NCBI GenBank assembly: GCA_030432235.1
Contig: JAUIHT010000009.1
Coordinates: 1 to 64,000, forward strand
DNA from: Verrucomicrobiia bacterium
GTDB lineage: Bacteria > Verrucomicrobiota > Verrucomicrobiia > Opitutales > Cerasicoccaceae
DNA length: 64,000 bases
Direction: 5' to 3'
Shown here: positions 53,830-60,328 of the stretch, piece after piece
How the letters are laid out: each line of letters starts with the position of its first letter
Position numbering within the stretch: the first letter of the stretch is position 1
The notes under the pieces: generated by a model
The model's database searches: none
Told to the model about the DNA's origin: nothing
Seen by the model: only the letters and a program-made list of their open reading frames with translations
Translations under genes and position numbers: made by a program

Positions 53830-54786
53830 CTACTCCGCCGGTCTCGTAACGACCACGGTTTCGCTGCCCTTTTCGTTACCGGTGTTGAGGATGACGTACA
53901 CGCGGTAGAGGGCGGTGTCGCCGGGGCTGGTCAAACCGTCGGCGGTGGAGAACTCGCGCGTGGCCTCGGCGGGGTTGGTAGCCACGACGTGTTCCTCGGC
54001 GGTATTGTAGGGGCTCACCGGGCTGCGACGCAGTTGGTATTCCTCGAGGTCGTTGTCCGCGGACTCCGAGTAGGTAATGAGCGCCATACTCGTGCCTGCA
54101 TCCCAGATGCCCTCCGCCGTGACGGCGTCCGGGGTGTGGCCGGGGGCCGGGTAAAGCGCGGGCAGGCTCTCGATAATGGCCGAGCCGGGCGCGAAGAGCG
54201 CCTCGATGACGCGACGGTAGCTGACGAGGATGGGTACGATTTTCTCCTGCAGGACATTGCGCGCGTCCCGCGCCAGCTTTAGCTCCTGCTCGTTATCGGC
54301 ATCGGTGATATAGGCGTCAGTGAGCGCGTTCAGGTCGGTCTGGAAGTCCGCGACAGCGTAATCTCCACTGAGCAGGAAGGGGTCGGGGTCCTGAGCCGTG
54401 TTAATCTTCTGCCACAGCGAGTCCATATCCTGCAAGGGCTTGGTAAAAGCCCCTTGTGCGCTACCGATGTTGGGCGCATCCGGCAGGGCGCGCTCGAAGG
54501 CGCTGCCCGGCAGCAGCCCGCGCACGCGGCGGTTAAACTCCAGCAGGCGCTCGCGCAGGGCATCCTTCTGCTGAAACAAGGTGGCGTTGCCGATTTCCAC
54601 ATCGTTGAGCCGGTCCTCCACCGCTGCCTGCTGGTTGGCCAAATCATCCCGATCCGCCTCCAGGCCATCGCGGTCAATGCCTTCGGGCAGATCGATGCTC
54701 GACCCGTTGGCGGTGTTGGCATCCTCCCAGTGGGCGAGGAAGAGGTTAATCGTGGGAATGTATGAGCTGGGTCCTGATATTGGCAT
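53830..54786 (-). CDS. Hypothetical protein, possibly phage- or structure-related
   Basis: 318 residues, no signal peptide. The start PISGPSSYIPTINLFLAHWED is reminiscent of verrucomicrobial proteins of unknown role. Residues ~30-90 form a helical or coiled part (RDDLANQQAAVEDRLNDVE). The last ~100 residues (SMALITYSESADNDLEEYQLRRSP, ending in TGNEKGSETVVVTRP) resemble a fibronectin type III-like domain. Downstream there is a proper terminator. Function unknown. Confidence 0.65.
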   Translation of the reverse strand: MPISGPSSYIPTINLFLAHWEDANTANGSSIDLPEGIDRDGLEADRDDLANQQAAVEDRLNDVEIGNATLFQQKDALRERLLEFNRRVRGLLPGSAFERALPDAPNIGSAQGAFTKPLQDMDSLWQKINTAQDPDPFLLSGDYAVADFQTDLNALTDAYITDADNEQELKLARDARNVLQEKIVPILVSYRRVIEALFAPGSAIIESLPALYPAPGHTPDAVTAEGIWDAGTSMALITYSESADNDLEEYQLRRSPVSPYNTAEEHVVATNPAEATREFSTADGLTSPGDTALYRVYVILNTGNEKGSETVVVTRPAE

Positions 54787-55360
54787 GATGATGATGGGTT
54801 GTGGTTAATCGATGGATGAGAGAAGCGGGCACATGCGCCATGAAGTGAATTCAGAACAGGTTTAACGATGTCGCGTGTATCCGTGATCTACTGTAATATT
54901 TTTAGTATTTATCCCATTACAACCATATTTTAACCGTAATCATCCCCTTATCCTATTTTTGGCGTAACCACAGGGCTGGCACCCGCCAGCGAAACACCTG
55001 TATCGAGTAACAAACCACCTTGGGCTACCCTCCCGATTCACTTTTCTGGCCTTACTCTGCCCTGAACGGCTATTAATGTGCCCTATCCTGCTATTAATCT
55101 GCTCTATACGCTAATTACGGTGCCCTAGAGACCCTTTACGGTGCCCTGACTCGTCATTAATCTGCCCTGAACGCCTCTTACGGTGCCCAGAATAGCTATT
55201 ACGGTGCTCTATCTCGTGATTACGGTGACAAGAATAAGAATATGAGGCAGAATAATAGCCAGATAGAGCACCGTAAGCACTCGCTAGAGGACATGAATCG
55301 TAAAATAGGCCGCTTTAATGAGAATTGTGTATCGTTTTAGGATGCGTGATGCTTCCGTAA
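54787..55360. other. Gene-free region containing the 21-bp array
   Basis: 574 bp without a credible gene. The left part (54787-55051) is plain AT-rich sequence with nothing I can name. The right part carries the nine-unit 21-bp array (55052-55240). At 55262-55276 a perfect 15-bp inverted copy of unit 8 could pair with 55199-55213. After it come 85 bp leading to the next gene. Confidence 0.7.
55052..55240 (+). repeat. Nine-unit 21-bp phased array
   Basis: Units start at 55052, 55073, 55094, 55115, 55136, 55157, 55178, 55199 and 55220, each exactly 21 bp apart. The first 12 bases are conserved (TTACGGTGCCCT in units 4 and 5; TTAATCTGCCCT in unit 6; close variants elsewhere, with unit 9 degenerate) and the next 9 vary. 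Both strands contain stops, and no start codon or ribosome site fits, so it is not coding. The spacing equals two helical turns, which suggests protein binding along one DNA face. Confidence 0.9.
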
Positions 55361-55756
55361 ATGCGATATATCCTCTTTTTAGCTCTCTTGGGCGCAAACT
55401 TGGTCTGTGCGGGCGCACGCTTGCACCCGGAAGCCTGGTATCAGGAGCGCGCCGCAAAAAAGTATAACGCCGAGGCCGAAGTCGTCATGCCGGACGGCAC
55501 CCGCTGCGACCTCGTCACGGACAAGCACGCCATCGAGGTCGACTTTGCTGACAAATGGGCCGAGGCCATCGGCCAATCCCTCAACTATGCCTTCCAGACC
55601 AACAAAAAGGCCGGAATACTACTCATCCTTGAAAACCCCAAAGAGGAAAAACACCTCATCCGCGTCCAGTCCATCATCCTGCATTACAACCTCCCCATCG
55701 ACGTCCTCGCCATCCGCGCCTGGGAGGAGGTGGCTGATGCCTCCGCTAGCGAGTAA
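55361..55756 (+). CDS. Exported protein with PD-(D/E)XK-like core
   Basis: 131 residues. Signal peptide (MRYILFLALLGANLVCAG). The mature part runs WYQERAAKKYNAEAEVVMPDG, then RCDLVTDKHAIEVDFADKW and EAIGQSLNYAFQTNKKAGILLI. The D-x(8)-EVDxxxKW pattern with a following helix matches a PD-(D/E)XK nuclease-like core, here in an exported protein. It is GC-rich, unlike the next gene. The 21-bp array ends 120 bp upstream. A DNA-scavenging or competence role is a guess. Confidence 0.7.
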   Translation: MRYILFLALLGANLVCAGARLHPEAWYQERAAKKYNAEAEVVMPDGTRCDLVTDKHAIEVDFADKWAEAIGQSLNYAFQTNKKAGILLILENPKEEKHLIRVQSIILHYNLPIDVLAIRAWEEVADASASE

Positions 55757-55804: not shown

Positions 55805-58800
55805 ATGGCCATTAGCACACACCCCGGAGGTTCCGCAGACAAAGGAGGCAATAACTATGAGTCTCTATGGGCCGTGCGCGCCATGTGTGAGCTTTTTGAT
55901 GGCAACGCCTCTTCAATGCATGTTGAGACACCCGGAGAAGATAAAGCAGAATTTCACCTGCAAAAAGGAGATACCCTAGAATATTGGCAAACTAAGCGAC
56001 AGATAACGGGACAAGACACTTGGACTATAAAAACCCTGAGCAGAGCAGGTATACTCTCTTATTTTTATGATAAAACACAGCAAGGTAATTTATGCGTATT
56101 TGCCTCAATATCTGAAGCACCGCAACTTGGACAACTTATAGAAAACGCAAAGGCATCTAAAGATGTAGCAAGCTTCAAAGAACATTTCACAAATAAGGAG
56201 AGGCTTACCAGTTTCAACGAGCTCAAAGAAGCCATTGGCACAGATTCAGATGAAGATGCTTATCAGTTCTTGCTTAGAATGACATTGCACGGGGGACGTG
56301 AAATCACGTTAGAGCCCGAGTTCACAAATCGCTTGAGTGTGCTTTTCCAAGGGCCAGGACAAACCACGATGAGTCTACTACGCGACCTCTACATGCACAG
56401 CTCTCACGAATCTCTTACGATTGAAAGCGTTGAACAATATTTAAAGGAAAGAGGCATAGTTCGTAGACGCGATGGCGCTCCTGATATTAGAGAGCGAATA
56501 TCCGCAATAACGCAGGGCTATGTCTCGGGTCAGCAATCGAAATTCATCGGTCGTACACTAATAAAACGGAAACTTGCATCTGAGATTGTTGATGAGCTTA
56601 GAGACAGCACCACGGCACAGAACATTCTAATCTCAAGTGAATCCGGAGGCGGGAAAAGTGCTTGTCTTTACCAAATCGTAGAAGAATTAAGAAATTCAGG
56701 CATGCCAGTATTGGCTTTTCGTTTGGATAGCGTAGAACCTGTAAAGTCTACCATAGCTCTAGGTGAGAAAATTGGACTCCAGGAATCACCTGTTATAGCC
56801 CTTGATCAAGCATGGAGTGGTGGGATGGTCACGCTAGTCGTTGACCAAGTAGACTGCGTAAGCACTTATTCTGGGAGACATCCCGAATTCTTCGAGATTC
56901 TAGCTGCAATCAAAGATGAAATAGCAGGGATTCTCGGGCGGACATCTATTCATCTCATTTTAGCATGCAGAGAAGTTGACTTTGAAAGCGACTTTCGCCT
57001 CAAGCAGTTACTACCAGCAAAGCAGAAGCCAAAGAAGCTTGGGAAGTTCTCGGAGAGTGAAGTCAAAGAAGCAATTACGTCTGCAGGCGGCGACTCCTCA
57101 CTACTGACTAAGCAACAACTAGAGCTTCTTCTCCTTCCTCAAAACCTCTCCCTTTTCATCCAGGCGGGCCTAGCAACAAAGGCCTATTCATTTACAACAA
57201 AGAATGAACTGTTTAATGAATTCTGGAGGTTAAAACGTAGCGCAGTATCGCTAGACAGACCTGATTTCGACACTCTTTGGCCCCAAGTGCTGAGACACTT
57301 AGTCAATATAATGAGTGCAGGTCAGAAGCTTACTGTACCTGAAGTCACTATGGATAATTTTCCACAGGCATTACTCAGCAAGATGACCTCAGAAGGAGTT
57401 TTGACTTTTGAACGACGTCGTTATGGGTTTGTCCATGAATCATTTTTCGACTACTGTTTTGCTAGAACGCAGGCCAATGGAGGGCTAGATTTTATTCAAT
57501 CCCTGGAAGCTGAAAATCAATATCTGTTTAGACGTGCTCAGCTTCGCCAAGTCTTGGAGTTCATGCGTGATGGCGATTTCCATCAATACCTTGAGCAAGT
57601 ACGTTGGTTGCTCGAGAACGATTCCATTCGCGTATTTCTAAAGCTACATGTCGTCGAGCTTATATGCCTACATCCTGAGCCAAAGGATGAAGAGTTGGCA
57701 GTATTGATGCCTTGGATAGAGTCAGAATTGACTCATATCCAAGCTGGCACCACCAACCCAGACAAATTGGCATTACGTATATGGGAAAGCTTCTTTGCAT
57801 CTCGATCTCTGTTCCCTGTAGCGGATCGAATGGGATTGGTTGAGCGGTGGCTGCAATCAGGCAAAGAATGGTTGGAAGACAGAGTTACCGTATACTTACG
57901 CTGGAAGACTGAGAAACACAGCGAACGTGTTGCCGAGTTATTGGAGCCGTACGTTGGAGTCAGTGACGCATGGAACCGACGATTACGTGCAATGATGCAA
58001 TGGCGTAATCACGAGAAAAGCCGTCGCTTCTTCGACTTATTTTTACGCCTGCTAGACGACGGTGTACTCGATGAAGATCTAGAACAATCAGACTCTTATA
58101 ATCGAATCTGGTCACATCTGCATGGCTTTGCGGAAGAAAAACCGGTATGGTGTGCCGAAATCGCGGCGCACTGGTTAAGTCGACAAGTAGAAATCATTTC
58201 AAACTCATCAGAGAATGAGGAAATCAGATGGCGCAAACTGAGAGACCAATCAGGCGTAGACGAAATAATTAAGTGCGCCGAAAAAGCACCCTTAGAATTC
58301 CTGCAATTTAATCTGCCAATTATCTTACAGGCCGCAGAACGGGCATCCTATGCAGTAGAAGAAGGCGTGTATGCTTGCGATAGGATATGGCATAAGAGGA
58401 TATTATCTGAGCACACTGACATAGAAGATGCCTACCTTATTGGCTGCGAAAAAGCGATGGAGGTATTAGGAGAAGAAGAACCTGAAGCACTCCGCCCTTT
58501 CATTGAGCAAGTGCTCCCACACAGACTTTACATCGCAAATTTTTTACTCATCAGCGCATATACAGCAGCCCCCAAGCTCTTTGCTGATGAAGCTCTCACA
58601 CAACTGGCTAATGACTCAAATAGATTGATCTGCGGCTATTCAGATAGTGCTTATTGGACAACAAGAAAACTCATTGAAACCTGTAGTCCGCATTGCTCTA
58701 AAGAAGTAATAGAGAAACTCGAAGAAACAGTTATGACATATCGCTGTCCAGGCGAAGAGGGCAAAGATGGGTTTAAATCACGTGGGCATGTCGCTTTTAC

Positions 58801-60328
58801 GCTTCTGTCAGCTATACCAAAAGAAAAGCTTAGCATTAATGCCGTAGGAAGACTGGGCGAATGGAAAGAGAAGTATAGAGCACCAAAGCCTAGCCCTAGA
58901 GGAATACGCGGAGGTTTCATAGGTTCGCCAATTGAGCAGAATTCAGCAGAAAAAATGACCGACGAGCAATGGCTAAGGGCTATTGAAAAATACAACTCAG
59001 CTGAACGCATTCGCTCGTGGGATGACCCTTTACGTGGCGGAGGTGCACAACTAGCCCAACAATTACAAGGATTCGTAAAGAATGAACCTGAAAGGTTTGC
59101 ACGATTAGCACTTCAGTTCCCAGATGACACAGCAACCTGCTACTATATGAATGTCCTGTATGGGCTTCGAGAAGCGGATATTTCTTCAGATCTTAAACTC
59201 GATGTAGTTCGCCTCGTTTTCGGCATTGAGGAAGAAGCTTGTCTGCGACCTGCTCTAGATGTCTTGGGTTCAATCAATGATGTAATGCTCCCTGAAAATG
59301 CAATCGCATTCATTAAGAGGGCTGTTCAAAATTCTGATCCAGAAGTAGAGATCTGGGATCAGGAGACCCCCTACTATGGCGGCAACATGCTGGACCATGG
59401 AATAAATACCGTCAGGGGTGATGCGGCTGAGGCGATAAGAAATCTCATTTCAGAGAATGAGATATATATTGATGTGTTCCGTGAGGAACTCGAAAGATTG
59501 GCGTCAGATAGTAGTCTCGCAGTACGATCTGTAGCTGCCTCTACCATTCATGTCATTTATATACACAACCAAGAGTATGCCCTGCAATTACTAGATAAGT
59601 TAATCACTGCCGATGATAGGCTACTTACTAGCAATTACTTGGTCAGATTCCTTCGTGTTCTCCTTCGAGCACAAATAGCATTCATGCGTCCATTGATTCA
59701 ACGTATGTTAGCATCGACAAACGAGAAAACTAGAGACGAAGGAGGAGTCTTGGCTTGTTTAGCACGACTGTATCATGAATCAGCCAATGATTTAGCTGAA
59801 ACAGCACTAGCGGGTGACGAAAAAACACGTTTGGGAGCAGCTGAAGTTGCGCAAGCAAATATCCTACATCCTGAATGTCGAGAATGGTGTGAACAAACGT
59901 TGCCAAGATTGTTTAACGACGAAAGCAATGAAGTTCGTCAGAAAGCGGCACATTGCTTCTGGCATTTATGGCAGTCTCCCGAAACCCCATTAACTGACTT
60001 TGAGAATTTGATAGGAGTGTTCTTGAAAAGCCCAGCCTTCATAACTGATTCTAGTATGTTAGTCCACGCTCTCACCGACAGCCGCCAGCGTTTGCCAACA
60101 CTCACTTTGGATATCTGCGAAGAATTTGTGAATCGCTGTAGCGATGAGGCCAGAGACATTAGAACCTCGAGAGCAGCCGACGAAACCTATATTGGCAAGC
60201 TAGTCTTTACCGCTTATGAGCAATTGGAGGGCGAAACTTCGCAGATTCGTGCATTAGACCTAATAGACGCAATGTGCCTAGAAGGCTTACATACTGCGAG
60301 AGAACAATTGTCTTCGCTTGAGAGGTAA
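55805..60328 (+). CDS. Avs-like STAND NTPase with N-terminal nuclease-like domain (putative antiphage protein)
   Basis: 1507 residues, far lower in GC than its neighbours, so probably transferred. Residues ~15-70: GGNNYESLWAVRAMCELF, then E41, GED (~44-46) and E49, then YWQTKRQ (60-66). This is the E...D...QxK layout of Cap4/DUF4297-type nucleases. At ~278-286 ESGGGKSA is a P-loop. At 344-350 LVVDQVD is a Walker B strand, followed by LILACREVD. From ~500 on it is all-helical repeats (HEAT/TPR-like). This is the architecture of Avs antiviral STAND proteins that sense phage proteins. No accessory gene is adjacent. Avs subtype not assigned. Confidence 0.8.
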   Translation: MAISTHPGGSADKGGNNYESLWAVRAMCELFDGNASSMHVETPGEDKAEFHLQKGDTLEYWQTKRQITGQDTWTIKTLSRAGILSYFYDKTQQGNLCVFASISEAPQLGQLIENAKASKDVASFKEHFTNKERLTSFNELKEAIGTDSDEDAYQFLLRMTLHGGREITLEPEFTNRLSVLFQGPGQTTMSLLRDLYMHSSHESLTIESVEQYLKERGIVRRRDGAPDIRERISAITQGYVSGQQSKFIGRTLIKRKLASEIVDELRDSTTAQNILISSESGGGKSACLYQIVEELRNSGMPVLAFRLDSVEPVKSTIALGEKIGLQESPVIALDQAWSGGMVTLVVDQVDCVSTYSGRHPEFFEILAAIKDEIAGILGRTSIHLILACREVDFESDFRLKQLLPAKQKPKKLGKFSESEVKEAITSAGGDSSLLTKQQLELLLLPQNLSLFIQAGLATKAYSFTTKNELFNEFWRLKRSAVSLDRPDFDTLWPQVLRHLVNIMSAGQKLTVPEVTMDNFPQALLSKMTSEGVLTFERRRYGFVHESFFDYCFARTQANGGLDFIQSLEAENQYLFRRAQLRQVLEFMRDGDFHQYLEQVRWLLENDSIRVFLKLHVVELICLHPEPKDEELAVLMPWIESELTHIQAGTTNPDKLALRIWESFFASRSLFPVADRMGLVERWLQSGKEWLEDRVTVYLRWKTEKHSERVAELLEPYVGVSDAWNRRLRAMMQWRNHEKSRRFFDLFLRLLDDGVLDEDLEQSDSYNRIWSHLHGFAEEKPVWCAEIAAHWLSRQVEIISNSSENEEIRWRKLRDQSGVDEIIKCAEKAPLEFLQFNLPIILQAAERASYAVEEGVYACDRIWHKRILSEHTDIEDAYLIGCEKAMEVLGEEEPEALRPFIEQVLPHRLYIANFLLISAYTAAPKLFADEALTQLANDSNRLICGYSDSAYWTTRKLIETCSPHCSKEVIEKLEETVMTYRCPGEEGKDGFKSRGHVAFTLLSAIPKEKLSINAVGRLGEWKEKYRAPKPSPRGIRGGFIGSPIEQNSAEKMTDEQWLRAIEKYNSAERIRSWDDPLRGGGAQLAQQLQGFVKNEPERFARLALQFPDDTATCYYMNVLYGLREADISSDLKLDVVRLVFGIEEEACLRPALDVLGSINDVMLPENAIAFIKRAVQNSDPEVEIWDQETPYYGGNMLDHGINTVRGDAAEAIRNLISENEIYIDVFREELERLASDSSLAVRSVAASTIHVIYIHNQEYALQLLDKLITADDRLLTSNYLVRFLRVLLRAQIAFMRPLIQRMLASTNEKTRDEGGVLACLARLYHESANDLAETALAGDEKTRLGAAEVAQANILHPECREWCEQTLPRLFNDESNEVRQKAAHCFWHLWQSPETPLTDFENLIGVFLKSPAFITDSSMLVHALTDSRQRLPTLTLDICEEFVNRCSDEARDIRTSRAADETYIGKLVFTAYEQLEGETSQIRALDLIDAMCLEGLHTAREQLSSLER

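Follow-up and report, generated by a model that had tools for sequence, protein, structure and literature searches.

The window analysed here, a stretch of 64,000 nucleotides from a genome of the Verrucomicrobiia (Cerasicoccaceae), contains a short run of imperfect 21-bp repeats and thereby raises the question which property of such an array is held by selection, the letters or the spacing, and what the array is for. The first-pass annotation described nine units phased at exactly 21 bp, and this was borne out by the unit starts (55052, 55073, 55094, 55115, 55136, 55157, 55178, 55199 and 55220, the step always being 21 bp) and by TRF, which reports the array at period 21 and also at period 63 (score 146). 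The core TTACGGTGCCCT occurs 20 times in the window when up to 2 mismatches are allowed, against 4.7 occurrences expected, and none of 100 shuffles matched that count. The two core types that had been said to alternate are both present, but strict alternation is not: positions 4-6 of the units read, in order, CTC, ATG, ATC, CGG, CGG, ATC, CGG, CGG and CGG, and the ninth unit is degenerate. Likewise, the nine remaining bases, taken before to drift freely, are indeed less conserved but not without bias, as position 18 is mostly G, position 19 mostly C and position 21 mostly A over 36 units of the window sequence type.

Features of the array locus in the window (positions on the whole stretch)
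Feature	Position	Strand	Remarks
Linked gene, 318 aa, unannotated	53830..54786	-	two helical modules and a C-terminal fibronectin-III domain
Spacer, A/T-rich, array to gene (265 bp)	54787..55051	.	
Main arm, nine direct 21-bp units	55052..55240	+	core TTA(CGG/ATC)TGC(C/T)CT (12 bp) and a 9-bp variable part
Opposed arm, inverted units 55235, 55256, 55277, 55298	55235..55318	-	position weight matrix from nine units

The earlier description missed two things, the inverted units on the minus strand and the gene to which the array is linked. The window array in fact consists of two opposed arms with a junction near 55237, and their inverted relation is clear from two profile comparisons (z 7.2 and 7.1). 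One unit of the opposed arm (55256, TTACGGTGCTCTATCTGGCTA) is strong and shares 18 of its 21 letters with the unit at 55199; the other three are weaker, and all are in the same 21-bp phase as the main arm. No clear sigma-70 promoter was found on the minus strand of the spacer, and none could be placed for the linked gene.

The connection between array and gene extends well beyond this locus. The genome contains seven copies of the gene, one of which is a C-terminal fragment, and a 21-bp phased array lies directly 5' of all seven; in four gene copies its distance to the start codon is 22 to 36 bp. Homologs with clear scores in 131 other related genomes were limited to three copies, all found in another genus of the same family; each of the three has an exact 21-bp array on its 5' side, composed of other letters (e.g. 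eight units with an AATAAG core). In the 900 bp 5' of the gene, the best self-match lag was 21 or its multiple 63 for 10 of 10 copies from the two genera, as compared to 40 of 3000 random 900-bp windows of this genome. On the 3' side, none of 15 regions reached an identity of 0.5 at lag 21. The unit sequences differ between loci, even among copies of one gene family. For instance, the unit of the copy at C39:340 kb, TTAGGAAGGCGTTCCAGTCGA, has no obvious likeness to those of the window.

One scan of GTDB contigs yielded a further homolog in an Armatimonadetes MAG (JAFDWS010000006.1), where about seven units of GCTCTTTGGGTCTTGCCTAGT and variants precede the gene. When the 300 genomes around this MAG were searched, homologs were found in 34 of them (MAG included), and 12 of the 18 loci with a readable 5' side (MAG counted) carry an exact 21-bp array. 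The co-occurrence of gene and array thus spans two distant phyla. An array is absent at the other 6 of these 18 loci and also at the homolog of genome G378, so that over all readable loci it is present at 22 of 29 (the truncated copy on C37 counted) and absent at 7 of 29. The homologs without an array are mostly found on long branches, and on the tree of homologs the array label needs 4 changes, against 6.4 in shuffles. In two loci of the Armatimonadota group (L206 and L212) the units are near-identical, with self-matches of 0.93 and 0.95; these are young arrays, and they show growth by whole 21-bp units. No homologs of the gene were found on plasmids, phages or viral contigs.

Conserved throughout are the 21-bp phase and the location 5' of a single gene family; an inverted layout of two arms is often kept as well. 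Over 46 arms with 319 junctions and 2905 substitutions, neighbouring units are on average only 57% identical, and 261 of 273 inner units nevertheless fit best at zero shift, although the arms were delimited by phase, which makes indels look scarcer than they are. Wherever a locus contains related arms, these are always mutually inverted, which is the case for nine loci: the window, C37:1010 kb, C39:340 kb, C37:523 kb, C42:1187, C42:82 kb, C39:63 kb and two loci that belong to the Armatimonadota group (L203 and L214). Part of the array at C42:9 kb shows inverted arms, too. The claim that selection acts on the spacing is supported by these data, the 21-bp period being kept beside homologs in another genus and in Armatimonadota-related genomes; the first-pass annotation had also considered a local decay product with a period not conserved in relatives, and the period is conserved in them. 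As to the companion claim, of selection on a 12-base core, the core itself is not conserved. A strict two-unit pattern was found only in this genome when 88 relatives were scanned, and a sequence model (R1) gave only weak matches in 177 relatives, the best of which, where read, lay inside a gene. At the C39:340 kb locus we observed a 63-bp higher-order repeat (L064 10850-11000, identity 0.91 at lag 63), which shows that three units were recently duplicated at once.

The same genome also contains related arrays elsewhere. The search with the 12-mer revealed two further arrays of the window type (C37:1010816-1011208 and C42:1187-1453), both of which have long arms in forward and in inverted orientation, and in these two and in the window the starts of the last forward and the first inverted unit are 15 bp apart modulo 21. 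A three-unit model added more diverged arrays at C42:82 kb, C42:473 kb and C20:227 kb. We also scanned 1.70 Mb (about 30% of the genome) outside long frames in a manner independent of sequence, and found 14 arrays at period 21 and one each at periods 14, 15 and 27, with no others within 13-35; at a stricter setting, 8 arrays remained at period 21 and none at other periods. One of the 14 (C39:461 kb) resembles a 7-bp simple repeat. Several period-21 arrays stand alone between ordinary genes, for instance the one at C42:82 kb between a thiL-like and a proA-like gene, and the array at C39:26 kb lies 5' of a second protein (P0001, 219 aa), which looks helical and fibronectin-like from its sequence. 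An Acido-Lenti-1 RNA (RF01687, L160 3237-3281) is found about 1.1 kb 3' of the gene encoding the latter. No 21-bp arrays were found in 0.4 Mb of two relatives that lack the gene. In the second genus (genome G005) there are four non-coding arrays at period 23 (L166 3513, L168 1405, L173 7607 and L179 18978), which are possibly a sister class with another spacing, so that 21 bp should not be called the only possible spacing. Some of their units are internally palindromic (TGTTG...CAACA), and these arrays are found mostly between convergent genes.

The 318-aa protein itself consists of a two-helix module that occurs twice (residues 6-99 and 111-206), followed by a fibronectin-III domain at about 216-318. 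The AlphaFold model is confident, with a pLDDT of 92 overall and of 96 for the helical part, and in it each module is made up of a 22-residue and a 53-residue helix; the duplication of the module is clear at the profile level (hhalign E 1.5e-18). The fibronectin matches of the C-terminal domain are solid (Z 12.3, 1.7 A over 87 residues). For the helical part the best fold match was the ligand-binding domain of McpS (Z 9.4, 180 residues, 3.0 A) and Foldseek returned nothing below E 0.001; the matches of this part are generic helix bundles only. There was no Pfam match above the cut-off and none in NCBIfam, PHROGs or PADLOC, fold searches identified no recognisable enzymatic fold and no RNase-like fold, and there is no recognisable DNA-binding domain. 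The protein has a pI of 4.3 and most copies of the family are acidic, which argues against the linked protein simply binding DNA itself. The 53-residue helix measures about 80 A and 21 bp of DNA about 71 A, a match of lengths that is only suggestive.

At what level, then, does the array act? Twenty-one base pairs correspond to two turns of B-DNA, and double-stranded sites can be bound in either orientation, so that inverted arms fit sites in double-stranded DNA and not in single-stranded RNA; the inverted arms and the two-turn spacing together favour double-stranded DNA that is bound on one face. An alternative is that the array acts as RNA, either as a repeat-rich leader or as an RNA of its own, to which the gene product would bind as in type III toxin-antitoxin systems. 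Its place directly 5' of the gene and the locus-specific repeats of fixed length, so close to the start codon in four copies, would suit this, but inverted arms would destroy half of the RNA sites. Moreover, folding is no stronger for single arms than for their shuffles (mean z -0.2 and -0.6), arm-to-arm covariation was not found, pairing in mirror register was no better than at other unit shifts (a register test that rules out a long RNA hairpin formed by the two arms), no Rfam family matches any array and the protein is without an RNase-like fold. We therefore regard a role as RNA as improbable. Far less probable still, and already largely refuted, is a present or former coding role, in which the 7 codons of a 21-bp unit would specify a seven-residue repeat. 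In some arrays one frame stays open for 100-170 codons and has heptad-like text (L064 10720-11130 and C39:26066-26581), but most have a stop in every frame, a 3-bp harmonic is absent and the arms are inverted, and coding heptads were rejected on the stops and the missing harmonic. For the window array, which the first-pass annotation had taken to be non-coding, this agrees with what we found, as its best frame still contains a stop. Long open frames with heptad-like text (e.g. QRALSET repeats) occur at L073 4347-4853, L064 10720-11130 and L111 6266-6781, and such frames are a trap for gene callers. Intrinsic curvature was considered as well; the A/T harmonic at 10.5 bp had a z of 5.0 (33 arms) that dropped to 0.9 when related arms were counted once, and intrinsic bending is therefore not claimed. 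Counted in that way, a purine-pyrimidine harmonic at 4.2 bp (five per unit) has a z of 5.9 (33 arms).

The reading that we prefer, to which we assign a probability of roughly 45%, is that the array is a cis-acting platform of double-stranded DNA belonging to the gene just downstream, on which a row of proteins at multiple sites controls or anchors that gene. The protein row would assemble on one face of the DNA, and each of the two opposed arms of sites would probably start one row, the two rows facing each other. For the bound protein, the most likely roles are control of transcription of the linked helical/fibronectin-III gene or anchorage beside it. Each locus would renew its own unit sequence by local duplication and loss of 21-bp units, whereby the letters would drift together with the gene copy and the spacing would be held. 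Both the binding of protein at the array and its action on the linked gene are things we infer. The multi-site binding platform proposed from the window thus remains the best-supported reading, but its binder is so far a matter of candidates, either the acidic helical product of the linked gene or another protein that binds DNA. With units that differ in sequence from one locus to the next, the arrays are unlikely to share one sequence-specific binder, and a single regulator that reads sequence would not suit them. Since solo arrays without the gene exist, control of the linked gene cannot be the sole role. Other points that count against the platform are the protein's acidity and lack of a recognisable DNA-binding domain, the failure to place a promoter, the 7 of 29 readable homologs without an array and the period-23 arrays of the second genus. 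A more far-reaching version is tentative and rather unlikely as it stands: a previously undescribed gene-plus-array system in two phyla, in which selection would hold the geometry of the array (the 21-bp phase, the opposed arms and the place 5' of the gene) as the letters drift, and in which the linked product, with a fibronectin domain and two elongated helical modules that each approximate 21 bp of DNA in length, or a partner of it, would assemble as a row.

The strongest rival to the platform is a mobile or selfish cassette formed by array and gene, with the two-armed array as the recognition or end structure for a transposition or recombination complex and the solo arrays as relics. The up to seven gene copies per genome, the patchy spread of the gene over two phyla and the recurrence of one unit type in solo arrays elsewhere are in line with mobility, as are an IS630-type transposase (L010 60-1133) that ends beside the array at C42:1187 and a REP-type (Y1) transposase (L073 3907-4416) that adjoins the array of the Armatimonadota MAG, both named by eye from sequence features, and the restriction or defence-like genes that adjoin several copies. 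Nevertheless, no recombinase or transposase common to the loci was found among the neighbours read, the linked protein is without a recognisable enzymatic fold and the letters of the array differ between loci, and a cassette seems unlikely to us. A functionless minisatellite that drifts, is renewed by slippage and stands beside the gene by ancestry would explain why units are homogeneous within a locus and different between loci and why near-identical young arrays exist. Slippage alone is not expected to hold one exact period over two phyla, to keep phase through about nine substitutions per unit junction or to give inverted arms and a tie to one gene family, and no such array turned up in the 0.4 Mb scanned from the two relatives that lack the gene; we consider this explanation very doubtful.

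The arrays were also compared with known systems. Plasmid replication iterons have a conserved core within direct repeats of roughly 17-22 bp, and they need a cognate Rep gene and an origin. The arrays share with them direct repeats about two helical turns apart, but they lie on chromosomal contigs, several per genome, with no Rep-like neighbour in the stretches read; as the first-pass annotation noted, no Rep-like protein adjoins the window array, and an iteron origin was rejected on this ground. In centromeres of the ParR/parC type, an ordered row of protein starts from short direct repeats in two groups, and ParM/ParR genes are needed. Two groups of short direct repeats are found here as well, but none of the neighbours is recognisably of the ParM/ParR type and they differ at every locus, so that this candidate, too, was dismissed. 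In type III toxin-antitoxin systems the repeats function as structured RNA, with an endoribonuclease as their partner. The position of the array directly 5' of a protein gene and the locus-specific repeat sequence fit, but such a locus was rejected for the lack of an RNA fold in the arrays; the arms are inverted, and the protein, modelled as helical modules and fibronectin III, has no match to a ToxN/CptN/TenpN-type endoribonuclease in Pfam, PADLOC or NCBIfam. A typical CRISPR had been excluded from the outset and this holds, as the 21-bp units have an imperfect core, spacers of CRISPR size are absent and no cas genes occur among the neighbours read. Compared with helically phased regulator sites, the arrays do show whole-turn spacing 5' of a gene, and by analogy the array would work most like a helically phased multi-site binding region. 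The closest example is that of the BvgA~P sites at the Bordetella ptx and fha promoters, which are weak and poorly conserved, are spaced by 22 bp and lie on one face of the DNA (PMC7250471). In both cases a row of sites precedes a gene, at intervals of about two helical turns. The BvgA~P sites number six, at 22 bp and with one known regulator, whereas the arrays have 21-bp spacing, inverted arms of many units, a locus-specific unit sequence and a fixed link to one gene family across phyla. REP/BIME elements resemble the arrays in being intergenic, dispersed and present in both orientations, but REPs are single palindromes with a shared sequence and not phased arrays with locus-specific units (PMC3733652).

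The open-licence literature yielded nothing on such arrays, and none of the known kinds compared here has the whole set of traits; the data suggest a DNA platform for control or assembly that is linked to a gene and has not been described before. Most cis elements come to light through their conserved letters. In these arrays the letters vary almost freely and it is the spacing that is kept, and ordinary motif and homology searches will therefore miss the class. With them one could ask, in a small natural setting, whether DNA can work chiefly as a ruler. They also give access to a protein family without a name, which has several copies in this genome and is met again in another genus and in genomes related to the Armatimonadota.

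For the more far-reaching version of the platform, a role in conflict with mobile DNA is hinted at by how often restriction and defence-like genes adjoin the arrays. Neighbours of the restriction or STAND type may represent accessory islands or a functional link. Near other arrays we found an Mrr-type endonuclease (L067 8897-9529), an NB-ARC/TPR protein (L064 11575-13746), a type I HsdR (L111 3895-6351) and a type IIG enzyme (L177 14356-17760). In the window, a 131-aa protein without a Pfam match (55361-55756) precedes a 1507-aa protein (55805-60328, plus strand) with an nSTAND-type NTPase and HEAT repeats, which matches the PADLOC candidate defence family PDC-M54A (E 1e-17).
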